Assembly (NCBI RefSeq): GCF_003855255.1
Contig: NZ_CP034072.1
Location: 5,630,296-5,694,295, forward strand
Source: Mycolicibacterium nivoides
Lineage (GTDB): Bacteria > Actinomycetota > Actinomycetes > Mycobacteriales > Mycobacteriaceae
Direction of reading: 5' to 3'
DNA: 64,000 nt
In this document: one piece after another, positions 29,879-46,608 of the stretch
Layout of the letters: each line of letters begins with the position of its first letter
Numbering within the stretch: position 1 is the first letter of the stretch
Notes under the pieces: generated by a model
Seen by the model: only the letters and a program-made list of their open reading frames with translations
What the model was told of the DNA's origin: nothing
The model's database searches: none
Position numbers and translations under genes: made by a program

Positions 29879-32800
29879 GTGGAACTGGGGGTTTTGGGGC
29901 CTCTTCAGGTCCGAATGGACGGTGCGCCCGTCGTGATACCGGGCGCGAAGCCGCGCGCCATCCTCACGATGCTCGGATTGCACGGTGGTTCGGTTGTACC
30001 GGCCGACCTGCTGATGGAATTGCTCTGGGGCGACGATCCGCCACGTACCGCCGCCAAGGCCCTGCAGACACATATCTCCTCTTTGCGTCACGCTCTCGGT
30101 GACGGGTTCGTATTGACCGAGGGAACCGGCTGGCGCCTGAACACGGCCGAGACCGACGCCTCGCGTTACAAGTCGCTCGCCAAATCCGGCAGGGACGCTC
30201 TCGGCGCCGGTGACACCGGTGGTGCCGTGGCGCGATTCGACGAGGCAGTGGCCCTGTGGCGGGGAATCCCCGAACTGCCCGACTGCCGACGGGGAGCGTC
30301 CGAGAAGACCCGGTGGATCGAGGGCCACGCGGCACTGGTCGAAGACCGGGCGGATGCGCTCCTGGCGACCGGTCGTGCGGCGGAGATCATCGGCGACCTC
30401 GAGGCGGCCGTGGCGGACGCACCGCTGCGCGAAAGACGTTGGGGCCAGCTGATGCTCGCGCTCTACCGCGCCGGCAGGCAGGGCGAGGCGCTCGGCGCCT
30501 ACCGCCGGGCCCGCTCATTGTTGGCCGATGAGCTCGGGGTCGACCCGGGACCCGAACTCCGGCGGCTGGAAGCCGCGATCGTCGCCCAGGATGCCGAGCT
30601 CGACGTCCCTGCGACACAACATGTTCCATCCGTAACGCGGGCCGTGACCTTCCTGCTGACCGACATCGAAGGGTCGACGGCCGCCTGGGAGACAGACGCC
30701 GACGCCATGGCGCTCGCACTGGCGCGACACGACGAGCTCGTCGAACAGGTCGTCACATCCCGCGGCGGCCGGCTGATCAAGACGCGCGGCGAGGGTGATG
30801 CCACATTCTCGGTCTTCGACCGACCGTCAGCGGCCGCAGCCGCCGCGATCGAGTTGCAGGACGCGATCTTCCACGAACCGTGGCCGCTGGCCGAACCGAT
30901 GCGTATCCGCATTGCCCTGCATACCGGCGAGGCCGAGCTTCGTGACGGCGACTACTTCGGTCGCGCCGTCAACCGCGCCGCCCGCCTGCGGTCGCAGGCC
31001 TCGGGTGGCCAGATCCTGTGTTCGGGTGCGACCGCCGAGCTGGTCATCGACACGTTGTCCGACGACGTCGCGCTCGTCGACCTGGGCATGCGCCAGTTGA
31101 AGAACCTGGCACGGCCCGAGCACATCTTCGAGCTGCGCCTCCAGACCGTCGAAAGTCCACCGCCGACCGGCGATGCACCCATCGAGCGGCCGGCGATGCC
31201 CGCGGTGCTCGCAGGACCTGGCCCGTTCGTCGGGCGCGCCCGCGAGCTTGCCGAGCTTCTCGCCGCCTGGCACCAGACGGTCCTGGCCGGCACCCGCGCC
31301 GTACTGATCGCGGGCGAACCAGGCGTCGGCAAGACCCGCCTGGCCGGCGAATGGGGCCGGCAGGCCTATGAGCAAGGTGCGGTGGTGCTTTACGGCCGTT
31401 CCGACGAAGACCTCGGTGCGCCCTACCAGCCGTTCGCGGAGGCCCTGCGCACGCTCGTGCCCTGTGTCGGTACCAGTCGGCTGCGCGGGCTGCGTGGCGT
31501 CGAAGCATTGCTGCCGTTGGTTCCCGGGTTGACCGATGTCCTGCCCGATCTCGCCGCGCCACCTCACGGAGACCCGGACACCGAACGCTACGCACTGTTC
31601 GATGCCGTCGTGGCACTGCTCGGAGTCGCCTCGGTGGAAGCACCCATCGTCCTGGTACTCGACGACCTGCACTGGGCGGCGAAACCCACCCTGCTGCTGC
31701 TACGCCACCTTCTGCGCTTCGGCGAGCACGCTCGCGTGCAGATCGTCGGCACCTACCGCAGTACGGACCTCGACCGCTCCCACCCGCTGGCAGCGATGCT
31801 CGCCGACCTCCACCGCGACGGTAGTGCCAATCGCATTGCCCTCAACGGCCTGGATGAGGACGACGTCAGCACGTATGTGGCCGAAGCCGGATACGACGAC
31901 GAAGAGTTGGCCCGCGCGTTGGCATCGGTCACCGGTGGCAACCCGTTCTTCCTCATCGAGTCCTTGCGCCATGTGGAGGAGAGCGGCGGGCACTGGGACC
32001 CGAGCACTCTGCCACAGGGTGTCCGGGAAGCCGTGAGCCGGAGGCTTTCCCGGCTTCCGGTCGAGACGAACAAGGCACTGGCTGCCGCCGCGGTGGTGGG
32101 CAGCCAGTTCCCCCTCGACCTGGTCGAGCAAGTGGTCGGCCAGGACCTGATCGACGCATTCGATGAGGCATGCCAGGCCGCCATCGTCATCGAGGAACCT
32201 GGCGGTCGCTACCGTTTCAACCACGCCATCGTCCGGCAATCGTTGCTTGCCGAGCTGGCGTCCGTACGGCGCATGCGGCTGCACCAGCGGATCGCGGCGA
32301 CGCTGGAGACGATGCCGGGCGCCGATGACGAACTCTTGGCTGAACTGGCCCACCACTACTTCGAATGTGCCTGGGCGGGAAACGCACTCAAGGCCGTCGA
32401 GTACTGCCGTCGTGCCGCCGACCAGGCGATGACGCGACTGGCCTACGAGGGCGCGGCCGACCTGTACGACCATGCCCTGCACGCGCTGGACGAACTGGAC
32501 GATGAGCTGCCCGACCGGGACGACCAGCGTGTCGAACTTCTGGTGGCGCGCTGCGAGGCGCTGCTGGCCGCGGGCGATGTGTCTTCGGCGGCAGGCGCGG
32601 TGTCGCAACTGAAAGAAGGAACGCGCGATTCAGCCCGCCTCGCGGCATGGGCGACATGCTTCGACGGCCAGCTCTCGATGCTCGTCGATCCCGAGCGCCT
32701 GGACGAGATCGAATCCGCTGTGGCGGCGGCCGCCCTGACGCTGGCCGAATTGAAAGACGCCGCAGGGGAAGCCAAAGCCCACACCGTGCGGGCAGGGTGC

Positions 32801-35800
32801 CTCGCCCGCCTCGGGCGTGTGGCTGATTGCGAGCTCGCATTGGACAACGCGCTCACCGCAGCGCGTCAGGCGCATGAACACCGTCTGGTGAACGCGGTGC
32901 TCGCGGGCGCCCCGCTGGCCGCGTTGTGGGGGCCCAACCCGGTTCCTCGCGCGGGCGGGCGGTGCCTTGACGTGGTGCGTCTACTGCGAATTACGACCGA
33001 TTCACCTGCGGTCGAAGCGACCTCGACCCGGTGCCAGGCTGTGCTGGAAGCGTTCCGGGGCCGGGCCGCTGCGGCCCGACGCATGATCGACTCCGCCCGG
33101 CGCACCGTCACCGAGCTGGGCTTGCGTCATGCGCTCCTTGAAGTCGAGCACTTCGCCGGCATCGTCGAGTTGGTCCTCGATGATCCCGCTGCGGCCGAGG
33201 AACATCTTCGGCTTGCCTACAACGGTTTCCGTCGGATGAGGCTGGATGCCGATACAGCGGAGGTGGCCGCGCTGTTGGCGCGCGCGTGTCTCTTGCTCGA
33301 CCGAACCGTTGAGGCTGAAGAATTGTCCTCGGAGAGTGAACGACTCGCCGGACACGCGTTGAAACCCGCCATTGCCTGGCGCACGGTCCGGGCACAGCTT
33401 CTTTCAGATGGTGGCTCACACGAGGAGGCCCGGCGCGTGGCCGAAGAGGCCGTGGCCATCGCCGAGCCCACCGACGTGCTGGTCGATCACGGCGACGCAT
33501 GTCTGGCATTGGCCACGGTACTGGGAGCAGCAGGCGACAGTGCGGGTGGGCGAGCCGCGGCCGAGCGAGCAGCCGAGCTGTACGAACGAAAAGGGGCTGT
33601 GGCGCTCGCAGAGAAGGCACAGCGCATTCTCGGTCAGCGCGACCTGCTGGCCGCTCGTGCTGAACCCGAATCGGCGAGTGCCGAACTCGACGCACAGTAC
33701 GAGCGATTCGAATCGTTGCGGCGGCCTTCGAAGAAGCAAGTACCCCAGCACTATTCAGATACCGCATGCACACGGGCAAGCCAACGTGCGGTGGCTGCTA
33801 TCGATGCCGAGGCGTGGGACGAATTCGAGCAGATGTTCGCTCCCGAAGGCTACATCGAGAGTAGGCGCAAGCTCGTTGGCTTCGAGCGAACCGAATTCTC
33901 ACCACACGGCGTGATGCACCAGACGAGGTGCGACCTCGAGAGCGGGATCATGCGGGCGGAGCATGTCATTCTTGCCGTACGAGGCGAGCGTCTCGCACTT
34001 GCACGGGTCATCCTGGGCACTGTCGATGAAAGCCCTGGCGCACCCCAGGACGAAGTTCTCCAGGTGTTCGGCATCGATGAGGACGGCCGAATCGCTCTGC
34101 AAATATGGTTTGACGTCGACGATTCGGATGCAGCGCTTGCCGAACTCGATGCGCAGCACGCACTACTCGATCAGCGATATCGGCAAGCATCGCTCGAGAA
34201 CGCAGCAACGCGAGCCGATGATCGTTTGATCGCACTGTTCGGTGATGGCCGCCTGGACGAGATCGGTGTGCTGTTCACCGAGGACACCCAACTCGACGAC
34301 AGACGTCAAGGCTTCCGGTGTGAAAGCAATGACCGCGCGACCGCGGTCGACAACATCTGTTCGATCGCAGCCTTGGGGGCCGCTGTTACGAAGTCGACTA
34401 TCGCGGTGCGCGGGGATCGCCTCTGCCTAAGCCTCCTGCGATTTGAGAATGCCGAAGCATTTTGTGTTGAAGCGCTGGAGATTACCGAGGTCAACTCCGA
34501 GGGGTTGATGGTTGCCAAGGTCGAGTTCGAACCCGACGACTTCGACGCCGCTTGCGCCGAGCTCGACGCCCGATACCTCGCCGGTGAAGCCGCCGGCCAC
34601 GCACACACGTGGTCGGTGATCGCGGAGTCCTACGATGCGTTCAATCGACGAGAGATCGCCCCCACAACCCCTGAGTGGGTGAACATAGACCACCGTCGCG
34701 GAGCGGCATTCCAGCCTGGCGACATGGTCAGCTATATCCAATCTGCATGGGAAGATTCACCTGACACCAAGATCCATATCGCGGCGGTACATCGCCTGAG
34801 CCACTTCGGAGCGGTTGTCACCCATTTTGCACATGGGACCTCGCGAGGTGGCTTCGCCGCTGAATGGCGGGATATCAATGTTCTCACGGTGGAAGGCGAT
34901 ATGGTCTGCCGCTCTGAGCTATTCGACGAGGACGACCTCGACGCAGCGCTTGCGAAGTTCGACGAACTCACCCGACCGACACCGCCGCTGAGCAACGCGG
35001 CAAGCCGAGCGACCGACCGCTTTCTAGAGCGGTTCGCCGCCCGCGACTGGGACGCCATGGCGAAGATGGTGATTGACGACATCAGATTCGACGACCGCCG
35101 TCGGGTGATAAACGCCGACCTGCAAACCGGGCGGGACACCTTCATCGAGAACTTCCGGATAGCAGCTGATCTCGGCGCCACACAAGCGCCGACACCCATC
35201 GCGATCCGTGGTGAACGCGTAGTCCTCGCAAGCGCTCGATTCTCGCTCGGCGGTGGGGCACCTGAGGAGTTCGGCCTCGATCTCCTGCACGTGATCGAGA
35301 TCGACGCCGACAACCGCATTGCGGCGACCGTCACCTTCGACCACAACGATTTCGACGCCGCGATTGACGAGCTCGACGCACGCTACCTCGCCGGCGAGGC
35401 AGCGCCGCATGCACATTCGTGGTCGGCGGTCGTGGGCGCGTACGCCGCACTCAACCGGCGTGAAATGCCCGCGACGACCGCCGACCATGTGAGCGTCGAC
35501 CACCGGAGGGTGACATCATTCGCGCCCGGCGATATCAAGGACTACACCCGCAACGCCTGGGATCAGATTCCGGACATCAGCTTCCGCATCGAGGCGGTAC
35601 ATCGGTTGAACGATCGCGGTGCCGTCGTCACCCATGCATTGCACGGAACTTCGCAGGAGGGCTTCGAGGCGGAGTGGCGCGAGATCCACCTCATGACGCT
35701 CGAAGACGAGCTGTTCAACCGCAGCGAGATGTTCGACGAAGCAGACCTCGACATCGCTCTCGCACGGTTCGACGAACTAAGTCGCACGGCGAAGCTGAGC

Positions 35801-38239
35801 AACGCAGCAAGTCGTGTGTTCGAACGCTTCCAGAAGTGTTTGGCAGAAGCCGATCTGGACGCGATGGCGAACATGCTGTCAGATGACATCTGCAGTGAGG
35901 ATCGTCGTCACATAGTGAGTTCCGGCATCCGGCACGGTCGGGAGGCTGCTCTCGAGGACGCCCGCGTGATCACCGGACTCGGCGCCGGGATCACAGCGAC
36001 AACAGTCCTTGCGATACGCGGTGAGCACCTGGCGCTCAGGCACACTCAATACGCAGTCGGCCACGTACAGACCGATGCGTATCAAGTCGACCTTCTCGAA
36101 GTCGTCGTCGTGAATACCGACCAACGCATCTCCGCTGTAGTCAACTTCGACCCCGACGACCTCGATGCTGCTCTCGCCGAACTCGACGCCCGCTACCTCG
36201 CTGGCGACGCGGCGTCGCACGCGCACACCTGGTCACTCACGATGGCTGCTTGCGCCGCACTCAACCGGCACGAACTTCCATTGACAACAGCCGATTTCGT
36301 GGACGTTGATCATCGGCGAGCTGTAAGTATCGATGCGGGAGACATGAAGGCGCTTCTTCGTACAGCGCTGGAACATACCCCGGTGATGACGCATCACGTC
36401 GAGGCGGTACACCGACTGACCGAATACGGTTCGGTCATCACGCAAGTGGCACACGGTACCTCGGACGAGGGCTTCGACGCCGAGTGGCGGATAGTTGGAT
36501 TGCTGACAATCGATGGCGATTTGATCAACCGCTGCGAAGTTTTCGATGAGGACGACCTCGACACCGCACTGGCAAGGTTCGACGAACTCGGTCGGACGGC
36601 GCCGCGGCCGGAAAACACCGCAAGCCAGGTGATCAGGTGTTTCTTCGCGGAAGTCGCGGAACACAATTGGGACACCGTGAAGGAGTTACTCGCGGTCGAC
36701 TATTGCGGTGAAGATCGGCGCCACGTCGTGGGTTCAGGTACACGCCAGGACCGAGAAGCTGCGATCGCGTCCACGCGGGTAGTCGCGGACCTATCGTTCA
36801 CCGTCGACTCGTTGGCCATGATCGCGACCCGCGGCGAGGACCTCGTGCTCAGCCGTGCTCGCTACTCACGCCGAGAGGACAGGACGAACGAGTACATCGT
36901 CGAGGTCCTTGGAGTGGTCGAGATTCGCACCGACGGTCGGATCGCTGCGCTCGTCACGTTCGACCCCGACGACCTCGACTCCGCCTTCGCCGAACTCGAC
37001 GCGCGATACCTCGCAGGTGAGGCGGCCGCCTACCCAGGCGTGTGGTCGGCCATCGCAGAGGGCTATGTCGCACTCAACAGTCGCGAAGTTCCCGAGTTAG
37101 CACCGGAATGGATCAACATCGATCACCGACGAGCAGTCGGATTTGCGCCGGGTGAAATGCCCGCATATGTGCGCGCCACGTGGGACCTCGCGTCCGACAT
37201 GTTGGTCTACGTTGAGGCCGTCCATCGGCTGAGCAATGTGGGAACCGTTGTCACCCATGTGGCAAGTGCGACCTCAGAACAGGGCTTCGAATCCGAGTGG
37301 CGGGAGATCGCCCTTCTCGCTGTGGACCGTGCCTTGATCAGCCGCTGTGAACTATTCGACGAGGACGACCTCGGCTCCGCGCTAGCAAGATTCGACGAAC
37401 TCGGTCGGCCGGCGCCGCGGCTGGATAGTGCCGCAACCCGGATCTGGGCTCGCCTGGCGGATGCCTTCAATCGCCGCGACTTGGCGGGTTTGGTTGCCCT
37501 CATGACCGCGGATGGTCAATCGGACGACAGGCGAAAGGGATTGAGCTCATCCCTCACTGGGCTGGAACGGCATAAGGCCATGCACTCGGCGTTCGAGGTC
37601 GCACCCATTGGGCTGCGGCTCGATATCGGGCCCGTCGCGACACGGGGATCTCGCCTCCTGCTGACTCATGACCGCAGCCGCGATACCAACGAGACCGGCC
37701 AACCGGTCACGGTCGAACTGTTGACGGTGATCGAAGCCGACGACAGCGGCCTCATCCATGACACCGTGAGCTTCGATCTCGAGGACATCGACAAAGCCTT
37801 CGAGGAACTCGACGCCCGCTATCTCCGGGGCGAAGCGGCTGCGTATGCGCCCACATGGTCGGTCGTCACGGAGGGCTACGCCGCGCTCAACCGGCACGAG
37901 ATGCCCCGGGCGACGCCAGACGTTGTGAACGTCGACCATCGGCCGGGCGTCGCCTTCACGCCGGGTGATTTGTTCCCGTACATCCAGGCCTCTTGGGATA
38001 TATCGCCCGATCTGAAAGTCCACATCGAGACGGCGCACCGACTGTCCGAACTCGGCACGGTCATCACCCAGGCGGCGAAAGGGAGTTCGCACGAGGGCTT
38101 CTATGCCGAGTGGCGACAGATAGTGGTTTTCACGGTCGACGGCGACGAGGTGAACCGCTGCGAGATGTACGAGGAGGCCGACCTCGACGCCGCGCTCGCC
38201 AGGTTCGACGAGCTCGGTCAGCAGTCGCCCTCGACTTGA
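29879..38239 (+). CDS. Giant regulator: SARP-like DNA-binding + BTAD + nucleotide cyclase + STAND ATPase + SnoaL array
   Basis: This is a protein of about 2,786 residues. Residues 1-95 form an OmpR/SARP-like winged helix (MELGVLGPLQVRMDG, KPRAILTMLGLHGG, LRHALGDG). Residues 100-240 are a BTAD helical domain ending DELGVDPGPELRRLE. Residues 255-425 are a class III nucleotide cyclase domain (FLLTDIEGSTAAW, KTRGEGDATFSVF, ALHTGEAELR, NRAARLR). Residues from 450 are a STAND ATPase with Walker A GEPGVGKTR near 479 and VLDDLHWA near 595. About 820-1270 is TPR-like helix. From about 1290 to the end there are about eleven SnoaL/NTF2-like modules. M. tuberculosis has cyclase-ATPase-LuxR proteins (such as Rv0386); here DNA binding is N-terminal and the SnoaL array takes the C-terminus. 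The signal and targets are unknown. Confidence 0.85.
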   Translation: MELGVLGPLQVRMDGAPVVIPGAKPRAILTMLGLHGGSVVPADLLMELLWGDDPPRTAAKALQTHISSLRHALGDGFVLTEGTGWRLNTAETDASRYKSLAKSGRDALGAGDTGGAVARFDEAVALWRGIPELPDCRRGASEKTRWIEGHAALVEDRADALLATGRAAEIIGDLEAAVADAPLRERRWGQLMLALYRAGRQGEALGAYRRARSLLADELGVDPGPELRRLEAAIVAQDAELDVPATQHVPSVTRAVTFLLTDIEGSTAAWETDADAMALALARHDELVEQVVTSRGGRLIKTRGEGDATFSVFDRPSAAAAAAIELQDAIFHEPWPLAEPMRIRIALHTGEAELRDGDYFGRAVNRAARLRSQASGGQILCSGATAELVIDTLSDDVALVDLGMRQLKNLARPEHIFELRLQTVESPPPTGDAPIERPAMPAVLAGPGPFVGRARELAELLAAWHQTVLAGTRAVLIAGEPGVGKTRLAGEWGRQAYEQGAVVLYGRSDEDLGAPYQPFAEALRTLVPCVGTSRLRGLRGVEALLPLVPGLTDVLPDLAAPPHGDPDTERYALFDAVVALLGVASVEAPIVLVLDDLHWAAKPTLLLLRHLLRFGEHARVQIVGTYRSTDLDRSHPLAAMLADLHRDGSANRIALNGLDEDDVSTYVAEAGYDDEELARALASVTGGNPFFLIESLRHVEESGGHWDPSTLPQGVREAVSRRLSRLPVETNKALAAAAVVGSQFPLDLVEQVVGQDLIDAFDEACQAAIVIEEPGGRYRFNHAIVRQSLLAELASVRRMRLHQRIAATLETMPGADDELLAELAHHYFECAWAGNALKAVEYCRRAADQAMTRLAYEGAADLYDHALHALDELDDELPDRDDQRVELLVARCEALLAAGDVSSAAGAVSQLKEGTRDSARLAAWATCFDGQLSMLVDPERLDEIESAVAAAALTLAELKDAAGEAKAHTVRAGCLARLGRVADCELALDNALTAARQAHEHRLVNAVLAGAPLAALWGPNPVPRAGGRCLDVVRLLRITTDSPAVEATSTRCQAVLEAFRGRAAAARRMIDSARRTVTELGLRHALLEVEHFAGIVELVLDDPAAAEEHLRLAYNGFRRMRLDADTAEVAALLARACLLLDRTVEAEELSSESERLAGHALKPAIAWRTVRAQLLSDGGSHEEARRVAEEAVAIAEPTDVLVDHGDACLALATVLGAAGDSAGGRAAAERAAELYERKGAVALAEKAQRILGQRDLLAARAEPESASAELDAQYERFESLRRPSKKQVPQHYSDTACTRASQRAVAAIDAEAWDEFEQMFAPEGYIESRRKLVGFERTEFSPHGVMHQTRCDLESGIMRAEHVILAVRGERLALARVILGTVDESPGAPQDEVLQVFGIDEDGRIALQIWFDVDDSDAALAELDAQHALLDQRYRQASLENAATRADDRLIALFGDGRLDEIGVLFTEDTQLDDRRQGFRCESNDRATAVDNICSIAALGAAVTKSTIAVRGDRLCLSLLRFENAEAFCVEALEITEVNSEGLMVAKVEFEPDDFDAACAELDARYLAGEAAGHAHTWSVIAESYDAFNRREIAPTTPEWVNIDHRRGAAFQPGDMVSYIQSAWEDSPDTKIHIAAVHRLSHFGAVVTHFAHGTSRGGFAAEWRDINVLTVEGDMVCRSELFDEDDLDAALAKFDELTRPTPPLSNAASRATDRFLERFAARDWDAMAKMVIDDIRFDDRRRVINADLQTGRDTFIENFRIAADLGATQAPTPIAIRGERVVLASARFSLGGGAPEEFGLDLLHVIEIDADNRIAATVTFDHNDFDAAIDELDARYLAGEAAPHAHSWSAVVGAYAALNRREMPATTADHVSVDHRRVTSFAPGDIKDYTRNAWDQIPDISFRIEAVHRLNDRGAVVTHALHGTSQEGFEAEWREIHLMTLEDELFNRSEMFDEADLDIALARFDELSRTAKLSNAASRVFERFQKCLAEADLDAMANMLSDDICSEDRRHIVSSGIRHGREAALEDARVITGLGAGITATTVLAIRGEHLALRHTQYAVGHVQTDAYQVDLLEVVVVNTDQRISAVVNFDPDDLDAALAELDARYLAGDAASHAHTWSLTMAACAALNRHELPLTTADFVDVDHRRAVSIDAGDMKALLRTALEHTPVMTHHVEAVHRLTEYGSVITQVAHGTSDEGFDAEWRIVGLLTIDGDLINRCEVFDEDDLDTALARFDELGRTAPRPENTASQVIRCFFAEVAEHNWDTVKELLAVDYCGEDRRHVVGSGTRQDREAAIASTRVVADLSFTVDSLAMIATRGEDLVLSRARYSRREDRTNEYIVEVLGVVEIRTDGRIAALVTFDPDDLDSAFAELDARYLAGEAAAYPGVWSAIAEGYVALNSREVPELAPEWINIDHRRAVGFAPGEMPAYVRATWDLASDMLVYVEAVHRLSNVGTVVTHVASATSEQGFESEWREIALLAVDRALISRCELFDEDDLGSALARFDELGRPAPRLDSAATRIWARLADAFNRRDLAGLVALMTADGQSDDRRKGLSSSLTGLERHKAMHSAFEVAPIGLRLDIGPVATRGSRLLLTHDRSRDTNETGQPVTVELLTVIEADDSGLIHDTVSFDLEDIDKAFEELDARYLRGEAAAYAPTWSVVTEGYAALNRHEMPRATPDVVNVDHRPGVAFTPGDLFPYIQASWDISPDLKVHIETAHRLSELGTVITQAAKGSSHEGFYAEWRQIVVFTVDGDEVNRCEMYEEADLDAALARFDELGQQSPST
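33766..38224 (+). repeat. Tandem array of SnoaL/NTF2-like coding modules (period about 810 bp)
   Basis: After one single module (33766-34190), five double modules begin near 34196, 34990, 35800, 36612 and 37423, a period of about 810 bp or 270 residues. Each first half starts N/S-A-A-S/T-R, carries D/E-D-R-R, and ends ...ELDARYLAGEAA. Each second half starts H-A-H-T/S-W-S, carries LNRRE, DHRR and F-x-PGD, and ends LDxALARFDELGR. The copies have diverged but are clearly homologous and stay in frame, so this is internal protein duplication rather than a mobile element. Confidence 0.85.
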
Positions 38240-38260: not shown

Positions 38261-39190
38261 GTGGACTTCCGTGTGTTCGTCGAACCCCAGCAAGGCGCTA
38301 CCTACTCCGATCAGCTCGCGGTGGCCCGCGCTGCCGAGGCCCTGAGTTACTCGGCGTTCTTCAGGTCAGACCACTACCTGGCGATGAGCGGTGACGGTCT
38401 GCCCGGGCCGACCGACTCCTGGGTGACGCTGGCCGGCATCGCACGCGAAACCTCGACGATCCGGCTGGGCACCATGGTCACCTCGGCGACCTTCCGCCAT
38501 CCCGGACCATTGGCCATATCGGTCGCCCAGGTCGATGAAATGAGCGGTGGCCGTGTCGAATTGGGCTTGGGCGCAGGCTGGTTCGAAGCCGAGCACCAGG
38601 CGTATGCGATCCCGTTCCCGCCGCTGGGCGAGCGTTTCGACCGGCTCGAAGAGCAGCTGCGCATTCTGACCGGGCTGTGGGCCACCCCGGTCGGTGAGAC
38701 CTTCGACTTCTCCGGCGAGCACTACACCGTCGTCGACTCACCGGCACTGCCCAAGCCCACGCAGTCACCCGTTCCGATCGTCATCGGCGGCATGGGCGCC
38801 AAGCGCACACCGGCGCTGGCGGCGGAGTTCGCGTCGGAATTCAACGTGCCGTTCGTGCCGCTGGACACCCTCAAAACCCAGTTCGCGCGGGTAGCCGACG
38901 CGGTGGCCGCGACGGGACGAGCCGCGGATTCCCTGACCTACTCGGCGGCGTTCGTCGTCTGCGCCGGCCGTGACGAAGCGCAGATCACCAAGCGGGCTGC
39001 CGCGATCAACCGCGAGGTGGACGAGCTGCGCAGCAATTCCCCGTTGGTCGGCACGCCGGCCGAGATCGTCGACAAGCTGGCCCCGTTCCTGGAGGCCGGG
39101 GTGCAGCGGGTTTACCTGCAACTGCTCGACCAGTCCGATCTGGATCATCTGGAGCTCTTCGCCTCTGATGTCGTCCGTCAGCTGAGCTGA
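38261..39190 (+). CDS. LLM-class F420-dependent oxidoreductase
   Basis: This is a 309-residue luciferase-like TIM-barrel protein. RLGTMVTSATFRHPGPLA and GGRVELGLGAGWFEAEHQAYAIPFPPLGERF are characteristic of actinobacterial F420-dependent members, as is VPIVIGGMGAKRTPALAAEF. It probably reduces or oxidises a small substrate with cofactor F420; FMN use cannot be excluded. GTG 38261 follows TAGGCT by 6 bp, a leaderless start, 21 bp after the giant gene. Confidence 0.87.
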   Translation: MDFRVFVEPQQGATYSDQLAVARAAEALSYSAFFRSDHYLAMSGDGLPGPTDSWVTLAGIARETSTIRLGTMVTSATFRHPGPLAISVAQVDEMSGGRVELGLGAGWFEAEHQAYAIPFPPLGERFDRLEEQLRILTGLWATPVGETFDFSGEHYTVVDSPALPKPTQSPVPIVIGGMGAKRTPALAAEFASEFNVPFVPLDTLKTQFARVADAVAATGRAADSLTYSAAFVVCAGRDEAQITKRAAAINREVDELRSNSPLVGTPAEIVDKLAPFLEAGVQRVYLQLLDQSDLDHLELFASDVVRQLS

Positions 39191-41262: not shown

Positions 41263-43128
41263 TCAGGGTGTGGGCGCCACTGAGGTGGGCGTAGGGGCCT
41301 GCGTCGGCTCGGGTGCGTGTGTCGGCTCTGGCGCTGCGGTGGGCTCAGGCGCCTGTGTGGGCTCTGGTGCATGCGTGGGCTCAGGAGTTGGCTCAGGAGT
41401 TGGCTCAGGCGTGTGCGTCGGCTCCGGCGTCGCAGTAGGGCTGGGCGACGGCGACGGACTCGGTGACGGCACCGGCGGCTTGAACGTCGGGATCGGCAAC
41501 TGCGGGAGCGTCACCGGCGGAAATACCAACGGCGGCACCGGAATCGGCGGGATCGCCACGGGCGCGGGCGCGGGTGCCGGTGCGGGTGCGGCCGGTCCAG
41601 GCCGGGGCGCCTGCGGAGCCGGAGCCACCCGCTGCGGAGCCGGGGCAAGCGGTGCGCTCTGCCGGCTCTGCACCAACCACGGCGCAGATGCTTGCCGGGG
41701 CGCGGCTTGCGCTGCCCCAGGTCCGGGCCAGGACGGATCGCGCACCACCACGGTCCTGGTCGGCGGTGCGGGCGCTTGCTGCGCCAGTGGGGACTCGGCC
41801 GGAACGTTCTGTGGCGCCAACAGGCTGGATCCGGTCGCGGAGGCATCGAGGCGGTCGGCCCGCGCCGACAGCACCATGCCGACCGTGCCCACGACGGCCA
41901 GGAACACCCCCGCGTAGGCCACCACTCCCCCGCGCCGATACCAGGGGATACCCGCGGGAGCCGGCGAAAGGGGCGGCTCGGCGAACACGAATTCCGGCCG
42001 GGCCGAATCCTCGGTCACTGATTCGGGGACGAACTCCGCGACCTCAGCCACCGAGTCAGAAACCGACCAGGCCAGAGCAGACGCCGCGACCGTGCCGGTC
42101 CCCGCCACAGCAGCCAACGAAGCAGACGGCGCAACCGCCACCTGCGTCGACGTCTCATCGGCACCGCGGCGGCCCAGCAGCGCGGCCCCGACTGCCGCGA
42201 TCACCTGGGCCTGCGGCACGGTGGTGACCGGCATTCGGAACGCCTCGGAAAGGCGTTGGGTGACAAGGGGTATCCGCGCTCCACCACCAACTGTCACCAG
42301 CGCCGCCAGCTGTGCCGGATGAATGCCGTTGCGGCGCAGCAGATCCAGCAGGGCATCGATCACACCGCCGAGCGGCTCTTCGACGACCGCGTCCAGTTCG
42401 GCGCGGGTCAGCCTGATCGCGGTCCCAGCCCCGGTCAGGCTGGTGGCGCTCTGATCGCTGAGCTCTTCCTTGGCGGTACGGCACTGTTCGCGCAGCCGGG
42501 CCAGTGCGGTCACCGCAGCGGTCCCGGCCGGTTCGGCATCCAGATTGCTCAGGACGTGGCGCAGCACTTCCTGGTCGATCAGGTCGCCGGAGAAGTCCTG
42601 ATACCGCATCGTCTGCCCGATGGTCGCGAACCCCGCCCCAGCGTCGGCCAGGGTCAGGCTGGTGCCGGAACCACCGAAATCGCAGAGAGCGACGACGCCG
42701 CGCGCGGGCAGACCCGGATGCGCCTGGATGGCCGTCAGCGCGGCGACGGAATCGGGAACGACCCGGACGCCGGGCATCGCCCGCCGCACAGACTCAACGG
42801 CACCACCACTCCAATGCGCGGGAACCGCCAGCACCGACACCTCGGGACGATGCGCCGGGCTGGTCTCCCGCGTCAGCGCCTCGACCGCGCCGGCCAGTAA
42901 CCGTTCGGCGTGATGCGTCGAACCATCGGCGGCGACCAGCGGCACCGGGTCGCCCACCCGTCCCACGAAATCGGTGAACACCAACCCGCCATCGACCGAC
43001 GACGGCGCGCCGACCACGGCCCCGCGATGCGCGGACACGGTGAGCACCGCCCGCCGCACCAGCGGCGCATGATCGGCGATCGCCACCAGATTGGTCGCCC
43101 CCACGGACAACCCCAGGCAATCACGCAT
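41263..43128 (-). CDS. Membrane-anchored Hsp70-like protein with Pro-rich tail (paralogue 1)
   Basis: This is a 621-residue protein. Residues 1-330 are an Hsp70/actin-fold ATPase-like domain (VPAHWSGGAVESVRRAM, CDFGGSGTSLTLAD, VTVGGGARIPLVTQRLSE). The phosphate-1 loop reads LGLSVGATNL, so the Asp of the usual DLGTT is Ser. Near residue 395 the motif GIPWYRRGG precedes one membrane helix. The remainder is Pro/Ala-rich, ending in about 45 residues of PEPTHA and PEPTQA repeats. It lies 52 bp downstream of iniC on the same strand and is probably the last gene of the iniBAC transcript. The paralogue at 48830 reads the other way. Role unknown; a sensor or scaffold across the membrane is an inference. 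Confidence 0.8.
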   Translation of the reverse strand: MRDCLGLSVGATNLVAIADHAPLVRRAVLTVSAHRGAVVGAPSSVDGGLVFTDFVGRVGDPVPLVAADGSTHHAERLLAGAVEALTRETSPAHRPEVSVLAVPAHWSGGAVESVRRAMPGVRVVPDSVAALTAIQAHPGLPARGVVALCDFGGSGTSLTLADAGAGFATIGQTMRYQDFSGDLIDQEVLRHVLSNLDAEPAGTAAVTALARLREQCRTAKEELSDQSATSLTGAGTAIRLTRAELDAVVEEPLGGVIDALLDLLRRNGIHPAQLAALVTVGGGARIPLVTQRLSEAFRMPVTTVPQAQVIAAVGAALLGRRGADETSTQVAVAPSASLAAVAGTGTVAASALAWSVSDSVAEVAEFVPESVTEDSARPEFVFAEPPLSPAPAGIPWYRRGGVVAYAGVFLAVVGTVGMVLSARADRLDASATGSSLLAPQNVPAESPLAQQAPAPPTRTVVVRDPSWPGPGAAQAAPRQASAPWLVQSRQSAPLAPAPQRVAPAPQAPRPGPAAPAPAPAPAPVAIPPIPVPPLVFPPVTLPQLPIPTFKPPVPSPSPSPSPSPTATPEPTHTPEPTPEPTPEPTHAPEPTQAPEPTAAPEPTHAPEPTQAPTPTSVAPTP

Positions 43129-43180
43129 ACCTGTATGTCGACGGAGAGGCCCAAATCGTTAAGCCCCGGGTACGTGAGGT

Positions 43181-44686
43181 TCAGTACTGGCGCGACGAGT
43201 ACTCGGCGACCAGTGCCTCGGCACTTCGCACCGCGGCCCGGCAAGCCCGCGTGGTGAACGGATCGTTGAGCGGATGATCGGCCCGGCGCCGCCAGCGCTG
43301 CGCCGCGGCGAAGGCCGAACGAGGCCCGTCGAAGGGGGCGTCGGGCTGCAGTCCGAGCCTGCTGGCCGCGTCGGTGCCCGAGCCGCCGATGATCCGGCGC
43401 AGCGAGGCCATCTCGTCCTCGTTCAATGTCGTGGGGCGAGAGCGCAGCAGACTGAGCAACCGCAGCTCCTCGAAGGCATGCGTGTCCGCCAGCAGCGGAT
43501 CGATGTCGGCCAGGATGTAGGGGGTCGCGTAGATCGGGTTGTGCTGCACGAACTGTCGCAACGACAACAGCGCTGTATGCGCCTTGAGCAGCTCCGAACG
43601 TTGCGCGAACTGCTGGTCGATCACGTCGCGCAGGGCGATCAGACCGCTGCGTTCCAGCAGTTCGTCGGCCAGGGCGACGGAGTCGGACACCCCGGCGTGC
43701 ATCACTGCGATCGAGATCCGGATACCGAACATGCCGAACCGATCGAGTAGCGCCGCGCGGGTGGATGCGTCCACCGGCAGTGCACTGTCCTCGCGCACGA
43801 AGCGGTCCACGCTCAGCATCGCTTTCGTCAGCGCGGCCGGCTCGACGCCGGCGAGCTTCTGCAGCGCGACGAATTCGCTTTGCCGCAGTGTCCGGGCGGT
43901 CAGTGCGAGCAGGCCGGACACCGGGACGACGGCCTGGCAGATCCCCGTCTTGTCCATCTCCTCGGTGAACCGCTTGGCCACATCCTTGGCCGACATCATC
44001 GCGTCGATGCGACCGGCACCGATCTCGTCGGCCCGCGAGGCCACGCCGATGACGCCGAGTGCGCCCGAGGATCCGCCGACCAGTTCGCCGATCTGTTTGA
44101 GCAGGGCGATGTCGGCCGCGTTGAGGGTGCGCAACAGAAACACCACCGCGTCGACGCGGGGCACGCCGTCCTCGGGGACGAGAAGCCGGTGGGTCCGCTG
44201 CGAGACGTCACGCGACAGTGACGAGGTGCCCGGGGTGTCGATGATCGTAGTGTCGACGAGCTCGGCGGCCGGCCACTCGACGTCGAGGTCCACCACATCC
44301 TCGGGGTTGAGCCCGGTGAAGCTGAAGGTGAGGCCCCGGTAGTTCGACTGGTCACTGACGCCCCGCGCGATCGGCACGTTGGAGCGACGGCCGCCGCGGT
44401 GGTTGGCGGTCACCTTGGGGGTGGGCCCGTGCCGGAACCAGGTGACGATGCGGGTCGCCTCGGTGGCATCGGTGGGTGCGATGTCCTCCCCGACCAGCGC
44501 ATTGACGAGCGTCGACTTGCCTGCCTTGAGCGTGCCGGCCAGCGCGATGCGGATCGGCTGGTTGAGCCGGCGCCCGATGCGGTCGAGCTCGTTGTGCACG
44601 TCGGGCCGATCGCGGTATGCCGGGTCGCCCCGGTACGCCTTGATGGTGCCGCCCAGAATCGAGCGCACCTGATCGGCCGTGCTCAC
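43181..44686 (-). CDS. iniC: Dynamin-like GTPase IniC
   Basis: This is a 501-residue GTPase of the dynamin superfamily. G1 is GTLKAGKST at residues 51-59, G3 DTPG at 150-153, and a G4-like SRAD at 217-220, followed by helical regions. The length is close to M. tuberculosis IniC (about 490). In M. tuberculosis iniC is the third gene of iniBAC, induced by isoniazid and ethambutol. IniA of M. smegmatis is known as a dynamin-like membrane-fission protein, so IniC is probably its partner. It starts 68 bp after the iniA stop. Confidence 0.9.
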   Translation of the reverse strand: MSTADQVRSILGGTIKAYRGDPAYRDRPDVHNELDRIGRRLNQPIRIALAGTLKAGKSTLVNALVGEDIAPTDATEATRIVTWFRHGPTPKVTANHRGGRRSNVPIARGVSDQSNYRGLTFSFTGLNPEDVVDLDVEWPAAELVDTTIIDTPGTSSLSRDVSQRTHRLLVPEDGVPRVDAVVFLLRTLNAADIALLKQIGELVGGSSGALGVIGVASRADEIGAGRIDAMMSAKDVAKRFTEEMDKTGICQAVVPVSGLLALTARTLRQSEFVALQKLAGVEPAALTKAMLSVDRFVREDSALPVDASTRAALLDRFGMFGIRISIAVMHAGVSDSVALADELLERSGLIALRDVIDQQFAQRSELLKAHTALLSLRQFVQHNPIYATPYILADIDPLLADTHAFEELRLLSLLRSRPTTLNEDEMASLRRIIGGSGTDAASRLGLQPDAPFDGPRSAFAAAQRWRRRADHPLNDPFTTRACRAAVRSAEALVAEYSSRQY

Positions 44687-44754
44687 GCTGCGGAATCCAC
44701 CTCTTCCAACCCGGACGTCGAACCGGGGTTCAATCGAAAACTAGCCCTTGGAGC

Positions 44755-46608
44755 TTAGTTGCCCGCGCCCGCCAGACCGTTGGCGTGGTCGACCACCTGG
44801 GTCAGGATGTTTTGCTGACGCTCCAGCTCTCTGACCCGGGCGTTGCGCTCGTTCTCCTCGACCCTCGCCGCGGCGAGGGTCGCCTGCAACGACTCGTTGA
44901 GCGAGCGGGTGGTCTGGTTGGCGATTCCGCGGTAGTGGTCGCGCAATTGTCGTTGGATGCCCTTGAGGCGGTCCCGCGATTCCTTGCCGACCACGAAGGC
45001 GACGTCGTCGATGAACTTGCGCATGTTGGTCTTGGCCTCACCGCGGACCCGGAGCATGCGGTTCTCCATGTCCTCCTTGTAGGCCTTGCGGCCCAGCACC
45101 AGGCCGGCGCCCAGCGACAGCGGGTTGAACATGCCCAGCCCGGCGAATGAGGTGAGCATGCCGAACATCAGCACACCGCCATAGGAGCCGCGCATACCGG
45201 TGATGACCTTGTGCCCGGCCTTGATCGGTTTTGCCTCCAGCCGGGCCAGCGATTTCATCTCACCGAATCCGGCGCCCATATCCCTGGCGTCGATCTGAGG
45301 CAGTTGCACCGCTTCCAGGCCTGCCTCGGTGAAGGTGCGGGCCACCTCGGCCGCCAGTGCCTCCGCCCGCTGATACGCCCAGACGAAGTTGTCGCCGACG
45401 GCGGTGGCCACCGCCTCCTCCAGCTCCGAGCCGATCTCGGCCCAGTGCAGCGTGGGGTCGCCGTTGTCGATCACCTTCTCGGCGTGCTGGGTGATGTTGC
45501 GGAACCGGTGGCGCAGATCGTGATCGACATCGGCGGTCAGGTCGGCGATGCCGTCGTTGAGCACCTGCTGCCACAGCGCGGTCTGCTGCAGGGCATCCTG
45601 GGCTTCCTGCTTGCGCCGTTCCAGCTCGGCGGTGAGCCGCTCGCGTTCATCCGGATCGGTGAAGGCGGACAGCTCGGAGTTCACGGCCAACAGCAGATGT
45701 TCTGCGGCCGAATGGATTTCGGCGACCACCTCGTCACGGATCCGGTCGCTCTCGCGGTTCAACACCCGGTCGGACAGGAATTTCACGATGGCCGGGAAGT
45801 TCGATTCCTCGTTGAGTTCCTTGTCGTTGAGCTGGATCGCGTGGCTGCGCAGCACACTGGAGACCGGGGTGATCGGAACGTTGACGCCCGCCCGCTGCAG
45901 GTGGCCGGTATTGGCGCCGACGATCTCGCGCCAGTGCGGGTACAGGTCGGTCTTGGTCGCGACGATCGTTGCCAACGGGCAGATTTCGATCGCCTGACGG
46001 ATGAAGGTCATTTCCGGTTCGGTGAATTCCTGGCTGGTGTCGCTGACCATCAGCAGCGCGTCGGCGTCCGGCAGCAGGCCCAGGGTCGCCGAAAGGTGCG
46101 GCTGTCCGAGCCCGCCGACACCCGGGGTGTCGACGAAGGCCAGCCCACCCTTGAGCAGGGGGCTGGGGGCGGTCACCTCGACCCGCAACACCTCACGGCC
46201 CCCGGCCTGCGGAGCGCGGCGCAGGTCGTTGGTGACCTCCGACGGCGGGATGTCGATCAGTTCGGGTTCGGCCCCGTCGGGCCGGGCCACCACCAGGCGC
46301 GCCGACGCCTGCTCCCCGTAGGCGACGACGGTGGCCAGCACGGTGGATTCGTCATCGCCGACACGGGCCACAGGGATGTTGAGCAGCGAGTTCAGCAGCT
46401 GGCTCTTGCCCTGCTTGAGCTGGCCGGCGATGACCACTCGGATCTGCGGGTCATTGATGCGCACCTTCGCCAACCTCAGGCGCTCCACCAGATCGCCGCG
46501 GTCGTAGGTCGCGGCGATCGTGCTGGTGTGGTCGATGAGTTCGACGATCACCTTGACCTTGCGCGGGTCGCCCGCCGCGGCCGGGCGCGGGTCACTGGGT
46601 TGCGTCAT
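44755..46608 (-). CDS. iniA: Dynamin-like GTPase IniA
   Basis: This is a 617-residue protein. G1 is GQLKQGKS at residues 62-69, G3 DTPG at 160-163, and G4 TKTD at 218-221. A long helical bundle carries a hydrophobic segment (GGVLMFGMLTSFAGLGMF), matching the lipid-interacting tip of bacterial dynamin-like proteins, and a C-terminal coiled coil (RVEENERNARVRELERQQN) closes the protein. Orthologous IniA is induced by cell-wall antibiotics and has been shown to bind membranes and catalyse fission. It is 95 bp downstream of iniB. Confidence 0.93.
   Translation of the reverse strand: MTQPSDPRPAAAGDPRKVKVIVELIDHTSTIAATYDRGDLVERLRLAKVRINDPQIRVVIAGQLKQGKSQLLNSLLNIPVARVGDDESTVLATVVAYGEQASARLVVARPDGAEPELIDIPPSEVTNDLRRAPQAGGREVLRVEVTAPSPLLKGGLAFVDTPGVGGLGQPHLSATLGLLPDADALLMVSDTSQEFTEPEMTFIRQAIEICPLATIVATKTDLYPHWREIVGANTGHLQRAGVNVPITPVSSVLRSHAIQLNDKELNEESNFPAIVKFLSDRVLNRESDRIRDEVVAEIHSAAEHLLLAVNSELSAFTDPDERERLTAELERRKQEAQDALQQTALWQQVLNDGIADLTADVDHDLRHRFRNITQHAEKVIDNGDPTLHWAEIGSELEEAVATAVGDNFVWAYQRAEALAAEVARTFTEAGLEAVQLPQIDARDMGAGFGEMKSLARLEAKPIKAGHKVITGMRGSYGGVLMFGMLTSFAGLGMFNPLSLGAGLVLGRKAYKEDMENRMLRVRGEAKTNMRKFIDDVAFVVGKESRDRLKGIQRQLRDHYRGIANQTTRSLNESLQATLAAARVEENERNARVRELERQQNILTQVVDHANGLAGAGN

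Follow-up and report, generated by a model that had tools for sequence, protein, structure and literature searches.

The 64,000-nucleotide window of the Mycolicibacterium nivoides genome analysed here (contig NZ_CP034072.1, positions 5,630,296 to 5,694,295; coordinates below count from the first base of the window) contains a giant regulator gene at 29879-38239 on the forward (+) strand, in whose product a SARP activator module, a class III nucleotide cyclase and a STAND ATPase precede an array of eleven NTF2/SnoaL-fold domains. Comparison with related genes indicates that the array turns over fast while the preceding chassis stays nearly constant, and we lean slightly towards a reading in which the array is an exchangeable panel of ligand pockets gating a STAND switch that drives both the SARP activator and the cyclase. 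A wider proposal, offered as a tentative possibility, is of a chemical sense contained in one gene: a fixed SARP-cyclase-ATPase chassis would read a panel of differing, interchangeable pockets of two alternating types, combined afresh in each lineage (5-31 pockets, ∼46 in one genome). No array would carry redundant pockets, and the panel would be renewed as whole domains are gained, lost or replaced, with neither visible tandem duplication nor fast point mutation as the source.

The initial annotation described a single gene of 2,786 codons, and the frame is indeed open end to end, with a GTG start and zero internal stops. Translation could also begin at a TTG (29834) or at the codon-13 ATG, the latter consistent with the 2,774-residue database copy of the protein. 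The surrounding genome is one contig of 6,905,961 bases, with one full copy of the regulator and twelve partial matches, and the same architecture recurs in many other assemblies, so an assembly join inside the gene is unlikely. Pfam places Trans_reg_C at residues 24-75, BTAD at 92-234, Guanylate_cyc at 254-389, AAA_16 at 449-621 and SnoaL_2 in four stretches, and sequence matches in the PDB include EmbR, AfsR and the Ma1120 cyclase. In DNA coordinates (all +), the OmpR/SARP-type winged helix occupies 29879-30148 (limits approximate; aligned in 71 genes, with EmbR and AfsR chains as further support) and the BTAD domain 30152-30580 (Pfam E = 4.4e-37), giving the winged helix followed by BTAD that is characteristic of SARP proteins. 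The cyclase lies at 30638-31045, the STAND NTPase at 31223-31741 and, by position, a presumed helical arm or TPR-like stretch at 32369-33628 (residues ∼831-1250). The NCBIfam profile TIGR03903 covers residues 336-1096; like every other NCBIfam match of the protein, it scores under its cut-off.

From residue 1296 to the end, profiles of both unit types resolve six type A and five type B domains in the order A-A-B-A-B-A-B-A-B-A-B, that is A-(AB)5. The architecture and the count of about eleven domains in the initial annotation were therefore right; its two alternating domain types had been missed. Residues 1284-2786 split into two unit families of ∼135 residues each, with pairwise identities in the window protein of 26-47% among A units and 47-55% among B units; over 300 random unit pairs, A and B are ∼26% identical. 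The first and most divergent A-type domain, A1, is at 33764-34168 (residues 1296-1430), followed, all on the + strand, by A2 (34202-34597), B1 (34598-34996), A3 (34997-35407), B2 (35408-35806), A4 (35804-36217), B3 (36218-36616), A5 (36617-37030), B4 (37031-37429), A6 (37430-37843) and B5 (37844-38236). When compared with 3,758 units by BLASTP, A5 and B4 have best matches of 58% and 61% identity, respectively. Repeats are weak in the DNA of the array (copies 62-74% identical, spacing mostly ∼810 bases), so the units are old duplicates; Tandem Repeats Finder detected none. Ahead of the first domain, 33662-33700 (+) is a diverged copy of the stretch coding for the C-terminal helix of a unit, perhaps the leftover of an older one.

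Scanning named genomes for patterns derived from the window protein gave 103 relatives, of which 80, amounting to 79 loci, were kept; these are labelled as Mycobacterium, Mycolicibacterium, Mycolicibacter or uncultured Mycobacteriaceae. Seventy-one genes were parsed as complete and 65 of them appear unbroken, after removal of L061, L071, L077 and L103, which have a second frame with more units behind, and of two genes within 300 bases of a contig end. In the 65 genes the chassis before the array measures 1,270-1,330 residues (median 1,275), with a median identity over gene pairs of 82% (71 genes), beside arrays of 5-31 units. Unit order is A(AB)n in 52 of the 65, AA(AB)n in five, (AB)n in two and AAAA(AB)n in one, with an extra final A in five. 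As a measure of turnover we counted, for pairs among the 65 genes, the units of the shorter array with a same-type counterpart at least 75% identical in the other gene. Matched units amount to 1/3,075 at 76-80% chassis identity, 8/5,046 at 80-82%, 30/8,376 at 82-85%, 185/5,652 at 85-90% and 85/483 at 90-93%; even where the chassis is at least 93% identical, only 132/268 are matched (49%, 17 pairs; mean 44% over 22 pairs of the 71 genes).

The same pattern is seen close to the window gene. Its chassis is 95-96% identical to that of M. septicum L061, and the best unit identities are 80-96% at 7-8 places and 47-63% elsewhere, conserved units adjoining unmatched ones (a frame break interrupts the array of L061, and its last unit pair is left uncounted). 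A near relative, P0106, retains 9 of the 11 window units at 92-100% identity and lacks the A5-B4 pair, leaving by elimination a different A-B pair at the fourth and fifth places. Turnover is not universal, as one Mycolicibacter genome pair keeps 13/13 units. Within single genes, 80% identity is reached by 1 of 3,664 same-type unit pairs (65 genes), the window's own units include no near-identical duplicates, and identities within and between genes are 0.425 versus 0.415 for A and 0.483 versus 0.479 for B (71 genes); units of one array are as unlike each other as those drawn from separate genes. Some duplicates could be hidden where short-read assemblies have merged near-identical repeats. Clustering at 70% identity yields 333 clusters from 538 A units (71 genes) and 252 from 448 B units (70 genes). 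Horizontal exchange of units found no support, 0 units being at least 93% identical between genes with chassis less than 84% identical. The same holds for exchange between paralogues of the same genome: in the five pairs compared, no unit exceeds 0.69 identity, and one further pair was missing from the set. Even-numbered length steps (105 of 112 non-zero steps, chassis identity at least 85%) were rejected as evidence for a two-domain cassette, since alternation alone yields the same.

SnoaL folds had been anticipated after residue 1290, and are borne out by the SnoaL_2 matches and by AlphaFold models of four of the eleven units, A3, B2, A4 and B3 (A-B-A-B stretch, predicted local distance difference test score (pLDDT) 89.7; B2 alone, 93.5); both models match solved NTF2-fold proteins, and A and B units are accordingly assigned to the NTF2-like/SnoaL fold. 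Foldseek ranks two epoxide hydrolases of two domains each, Lsd19 and MonBI, first, with root mean square deviations of 12-22 Å over two domains, and the fit therefore holds for single domains only. Ketosteroid isomerases rank next, and proteins that bind steroids and polyketides are the closest in fold. A PDB search with the array profile returned 8 weak hits (best E = 0.13), among which erlin chains look spurious; Glyoxalase (13/77 members) and further unexpected Pfam matches, Barstar included, were put down to chance.

For variability, unit rows that were gap-rich or lacked some consensus residues were dropped, keeping 1,909/1,999 A and 1,620/1,759 B units, thinned to 623 and 422. Entropy alternates from position to position along the strands, a pattern that is clear in A and weaker in B, with contrasts at hand-picked positions of 2.94 versus 1.20 and 2.46 versus 1.22 bits; the variable positions carry few charges. 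Helices of the NTF2 fold lie on the pocket side of the sheet, and strong couplings to helix residues involve variable positions more often than others (over whole strands, 27/702 versus 16/663 in A, 21/546 versus 9/598 in B). As judged from alignments, variation concentrates on one face of the sheet, and this face is quite probably the pocket. Other residues hardly vary at all, for instance R71 in A (601 units) and E107 in B (498 units), both at 0.02 bits. The ratio of non-synonymous to synonymous substitution rates (dN/dS), sampled in 92 A and 69 B unit pairs from different loci at 80-97% identity, is 0.16-0.21, about 0.2 in every site class, so that pockets appear to differ between unit lineages and to be conserved within them.

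The enzymatic parts of the chassis appear intact. Cyclase residues D262, K301, E305, D307, D358, N365 and R369 are unchanged in 71/71 genes, and the cyclase is the best conserved part of the chassis alignment. We assign D262 to the first metal, K301 to the substrate and N365 and R369 to the transition state; all four align with the Ma1120 and 3mr7 cyclases. The STAND NTPase has both Walker motifs: Walker A (GEPGVGKT) is invariant in 71/71 genes save V483 (V in 69, I in 2), with Lys always kept, and Walker B residues D595 and D596 are invariant in all 71. It is mainly because these key residues are constant while the array varies that we favour a gated mechanism with two outputs. At rest, the array together with the helical arm would keep the STAND ATPase closed, by analogy with AfsR and other STAND proteins. 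The array would act as a panel of differing small-molecule pockets, and a small, probably hydrophobic ligand in one or more of them would trigger nucleotide exchange in the ATPase and self-association. This would pair the N-terminal SARP modules, allowing promoter repeats to be bound and RNA polymerase recruited, and would also pair the cyclase domains, so that one event might give both transcriptional and cyclic-nucleotide output. Class III cyclase domains act as dimers. Across species, the chassis would be kept as array domains are lost, gained or replaced, providing each lineage with its own panel. We infer ligand binding, gating of the ATPase by the array and the working of both outputs. 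The earlier suggestion of a multivalent metabolite sensor thus gains partial support from the closeness of the fold to steroid and polyketide binders, the variable, little-charged face and the invariant cyclase and ATPase residues, with binding and gating themselves remaining predictions.

Several observations weigh against this reading. The entropy contrast is smaller when whole strands are used: 2.17/0.78, 3.03/1.46, 2.63/1.78 and 2.55/1.64 bits in A, and 1.75/1.59, 1.96/1.51, 2.25/1.61 and 2.13/0.82 bits in B, where the first strand has almost no contrast and the positions called concave are the less variable. Faces were assigned from sequence without coordinates, and the hand-picked positions were chosen with their variability already known. 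The trend in strong helix couplings is reversed in the last A strand, and mean helix coupling in A does not differ (-0.061 versus -0.058). Diversifying selection at the pocket is unsupported by the dN/dS values. An A-B pseudo-dimer was considered from covariation, but the first couplings (maximum z 14.5) sat on conserved positions and were gone once atypical units were removed (209 of 1,745 A-B pairs, prior to thinning), leaving a maximum z of 5.7 versus 5.4 in shuffles; a lack of coupling fits interchangeable units, but fits just as well with A and B partners that do not touch. At its second metal site the cyclase has GEGD in place of GDG, a two-residue insertion relative to Ma1120, with both candidate metal residues (E305 and D307) among the invariant ones. 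Finally, the neighbouring genes in the window point to no pathway.

Of the other explanations, a structural spacer or self-association scaffold, its length and content drifting freely and the chassis alone mattering, would account for copy numbers of 5-31 beside a constant chassis and for the frames broken inside the gene in several relatives; we think it unlikely, given purifying selection on the units, the alternation of two types in nearly all arrays and the near-invariance of residues like A-type R71 and B-type E107. Turnover so much faster in the array than in the chassis would also suit recognition of macromolecules, foreign or own proteins, by a STAND-type immune or conflict receptor with the cyclase as output, and the available text of PMC7159879 describes nucleotide cyclases coupled to NTPase systems with hypervariable parts in bacterial conflict systems. 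This seems rather unlikely to us: 0 PADLOC families were matched (E up to 0.001), dN/dS is not elevated, the output includes a SARP activator, and the variable positions are little charged and more helix-coupled, which suits a buried pocket.

That the units are tethered enzymes of isomerase, hydratase or epoxide-hydrolase type, coupling catalysis with signalling, is suggested by the Lsd19, MonBI (single domains only) and ketosteroid isomerase matches and by a conserved first-strand Asp that aligns, weakly (E = 0.13), with an Asp of mycobacterial ketosteroid isomerase, presumably the catalytic one. Position 98 of A, which we take to be the pocket-facing place of the second acid and whose counterparts in the same weak match are an Asp in SalBIII and a Ser in the mycobacterial isomerase, is nevertheless among the most variable (3.55 bits), and in the accessible text of PMC7730460 the SnoaL_2 domains of ECF sigma factors serve regulation; we regard tethered catalysis as improbable.

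Thought at first to be an unusual single case, the regulator instead belongs to a large mycobacterial family. With the array as query, 1,144 of 7,986 scored protein candidates were matches, commonly named BTAD domain-containing putative transcriptional regulator; among the 120 matches listed, those named by organism are all mycobacterial save two metagenome proteins, P0033 (named Acidimicrobiaceae) and P0036 (named Kofleriaceae), whose arrays alternate too, and behind which either wrong binning or transfer may lie. Of 396 genomes sampled from the genus, 170 have a match to residues 1-1,280 at E ≤ 1e-100; in 7 of the 170 the best E is only 1e-102 to 1e-146, and the one examined of these, L120, is without SARP. 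At E ≤ 1e-20 the array profile matches 20/298 genomes of the order, confined to one of 76 genera, and at E ≤ 1e-10 it matches 7/396 genomes of the phylum, in 2/236 genera; the chassis is hardly present outside the genus. Another genome has, in L118/L119 (G364 contig 1), a 7,523-residue open frame with 24 and 22 units in two adjoining stretches (∼46 in total), and Mycobacterium sp. E2479 has three regulator copies (L068, L072 and L096) with 13, 27 and 27 units, among which units of different copies reach 0.69 identity at most. The frame is broken inside the gene in L022, L053, L061, L071, L077, L103 and L104, either by real decay or by sequencing error.

Array turnover had escaped the initial annotation, as had relatives that carry the cyclase, STAND ATPase and array without SARP. 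Two of these, L120 and L121, are mycobacterial, and a third, L117, from another actinobacterial class, has a zinc ribbon, cyclase and STAND ATPase followed by five NTF2-like units. All three share the cyclase-STAND-NTF2 order of the window protein, at 32-35% identity over the shared front part, but differ from it in lacking SARP and in carrying 5 (L117), 10 (L120) and 8 (L121) NTF2-like units without strict A-B alternation. Because such SARP-less proteins exist, the cyclase-STAND-array combination is probably older than the SARP fusion, and L117 is a possible image of the ancestral layout.

Beside the regulator, a luciferase-like monooxygenase gene (38261-39190, +) begins 21 bases past the stop, and HSP70-like and dynamin-like GTPase genes lie at 41263-46608 (-), shared by loci that hold the nearest relatives of the regulator. 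Luciferase-like and HSP70-like matches (E ≤ 1e-20) occur in the flanks of 11/79 loci each and dynamin-like matches in 10/79; some flanks are short, and adjacency is established for only some loci (e.g. L038, L071 and L090 for the luciferase-like gene).

If the proposed mechanism is true, this would be a bacterial multi-ligand receptor in a single polypeptide, and the family a natural library of hundreds of distinct units of the NTF2 fold, already used in designed steroid binders. It would explain how mycobacteria in the environment sense complex hydrophobic chemistry and connect this input with transcription and cyclic nucleotides. A clear puzzle is how arrays can grow to 31 domains when one array contains almost no near-identical units.

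We found no description of a SARP-cyclase-STAND protein with NTF2-like repeats among the open-access titles and abstract openings listed, subscription papers being outside this coverage. The readable text of a 2004 survey of actinobacterial cyclases (PMC2447327) contains no BTAD, though its index holds the term twice, and a brief mention of a SARP-cyclase is possible there. Large SARP regulators of the AfsR type (SARP-NOD-TPR) share the N-terminal winged helix and BTAD with a STAND/NOD ATPase behind; in AfsR, the closest studied protein, according to the available part of PMC10936776, the NOD and TPR parts inhibit and ATP binding releases. Unlike AfsR, the window protein has a class III cyclase between BTAD and the ATPase and eleven NTF2-like domains after it, and it reaches 150.8 bits against the cut-off of 1430 of the AfsR equivalog NF053617. 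The Mclx proteins (Rv0386, Rv1358 and Rv2488c), as described in the accessible text of PMC4452763, likewise combine a mycobacterial cyclase, an ATPase and a DNA-binding domain. Their order is cyclase-ATPase-LuxR, whereas the window protein is predicted to bind DNA through its N-terminal SARP, carries the long NTF2-like array and has no match to a LuxR-type helix-turn-helix in Pfam (E up to 1) or NCBIfam (E up to 0.1). The ECF41 and ECF56 sigma factors also place an NTF2-like domain, a C-terminal SnoaL_2, on a transcription regulator (PMC7730460, in the part available), but have one such domain and neither ATPase nor cyclase, where this family has 5-31 domains. The component parts are known from other systems.
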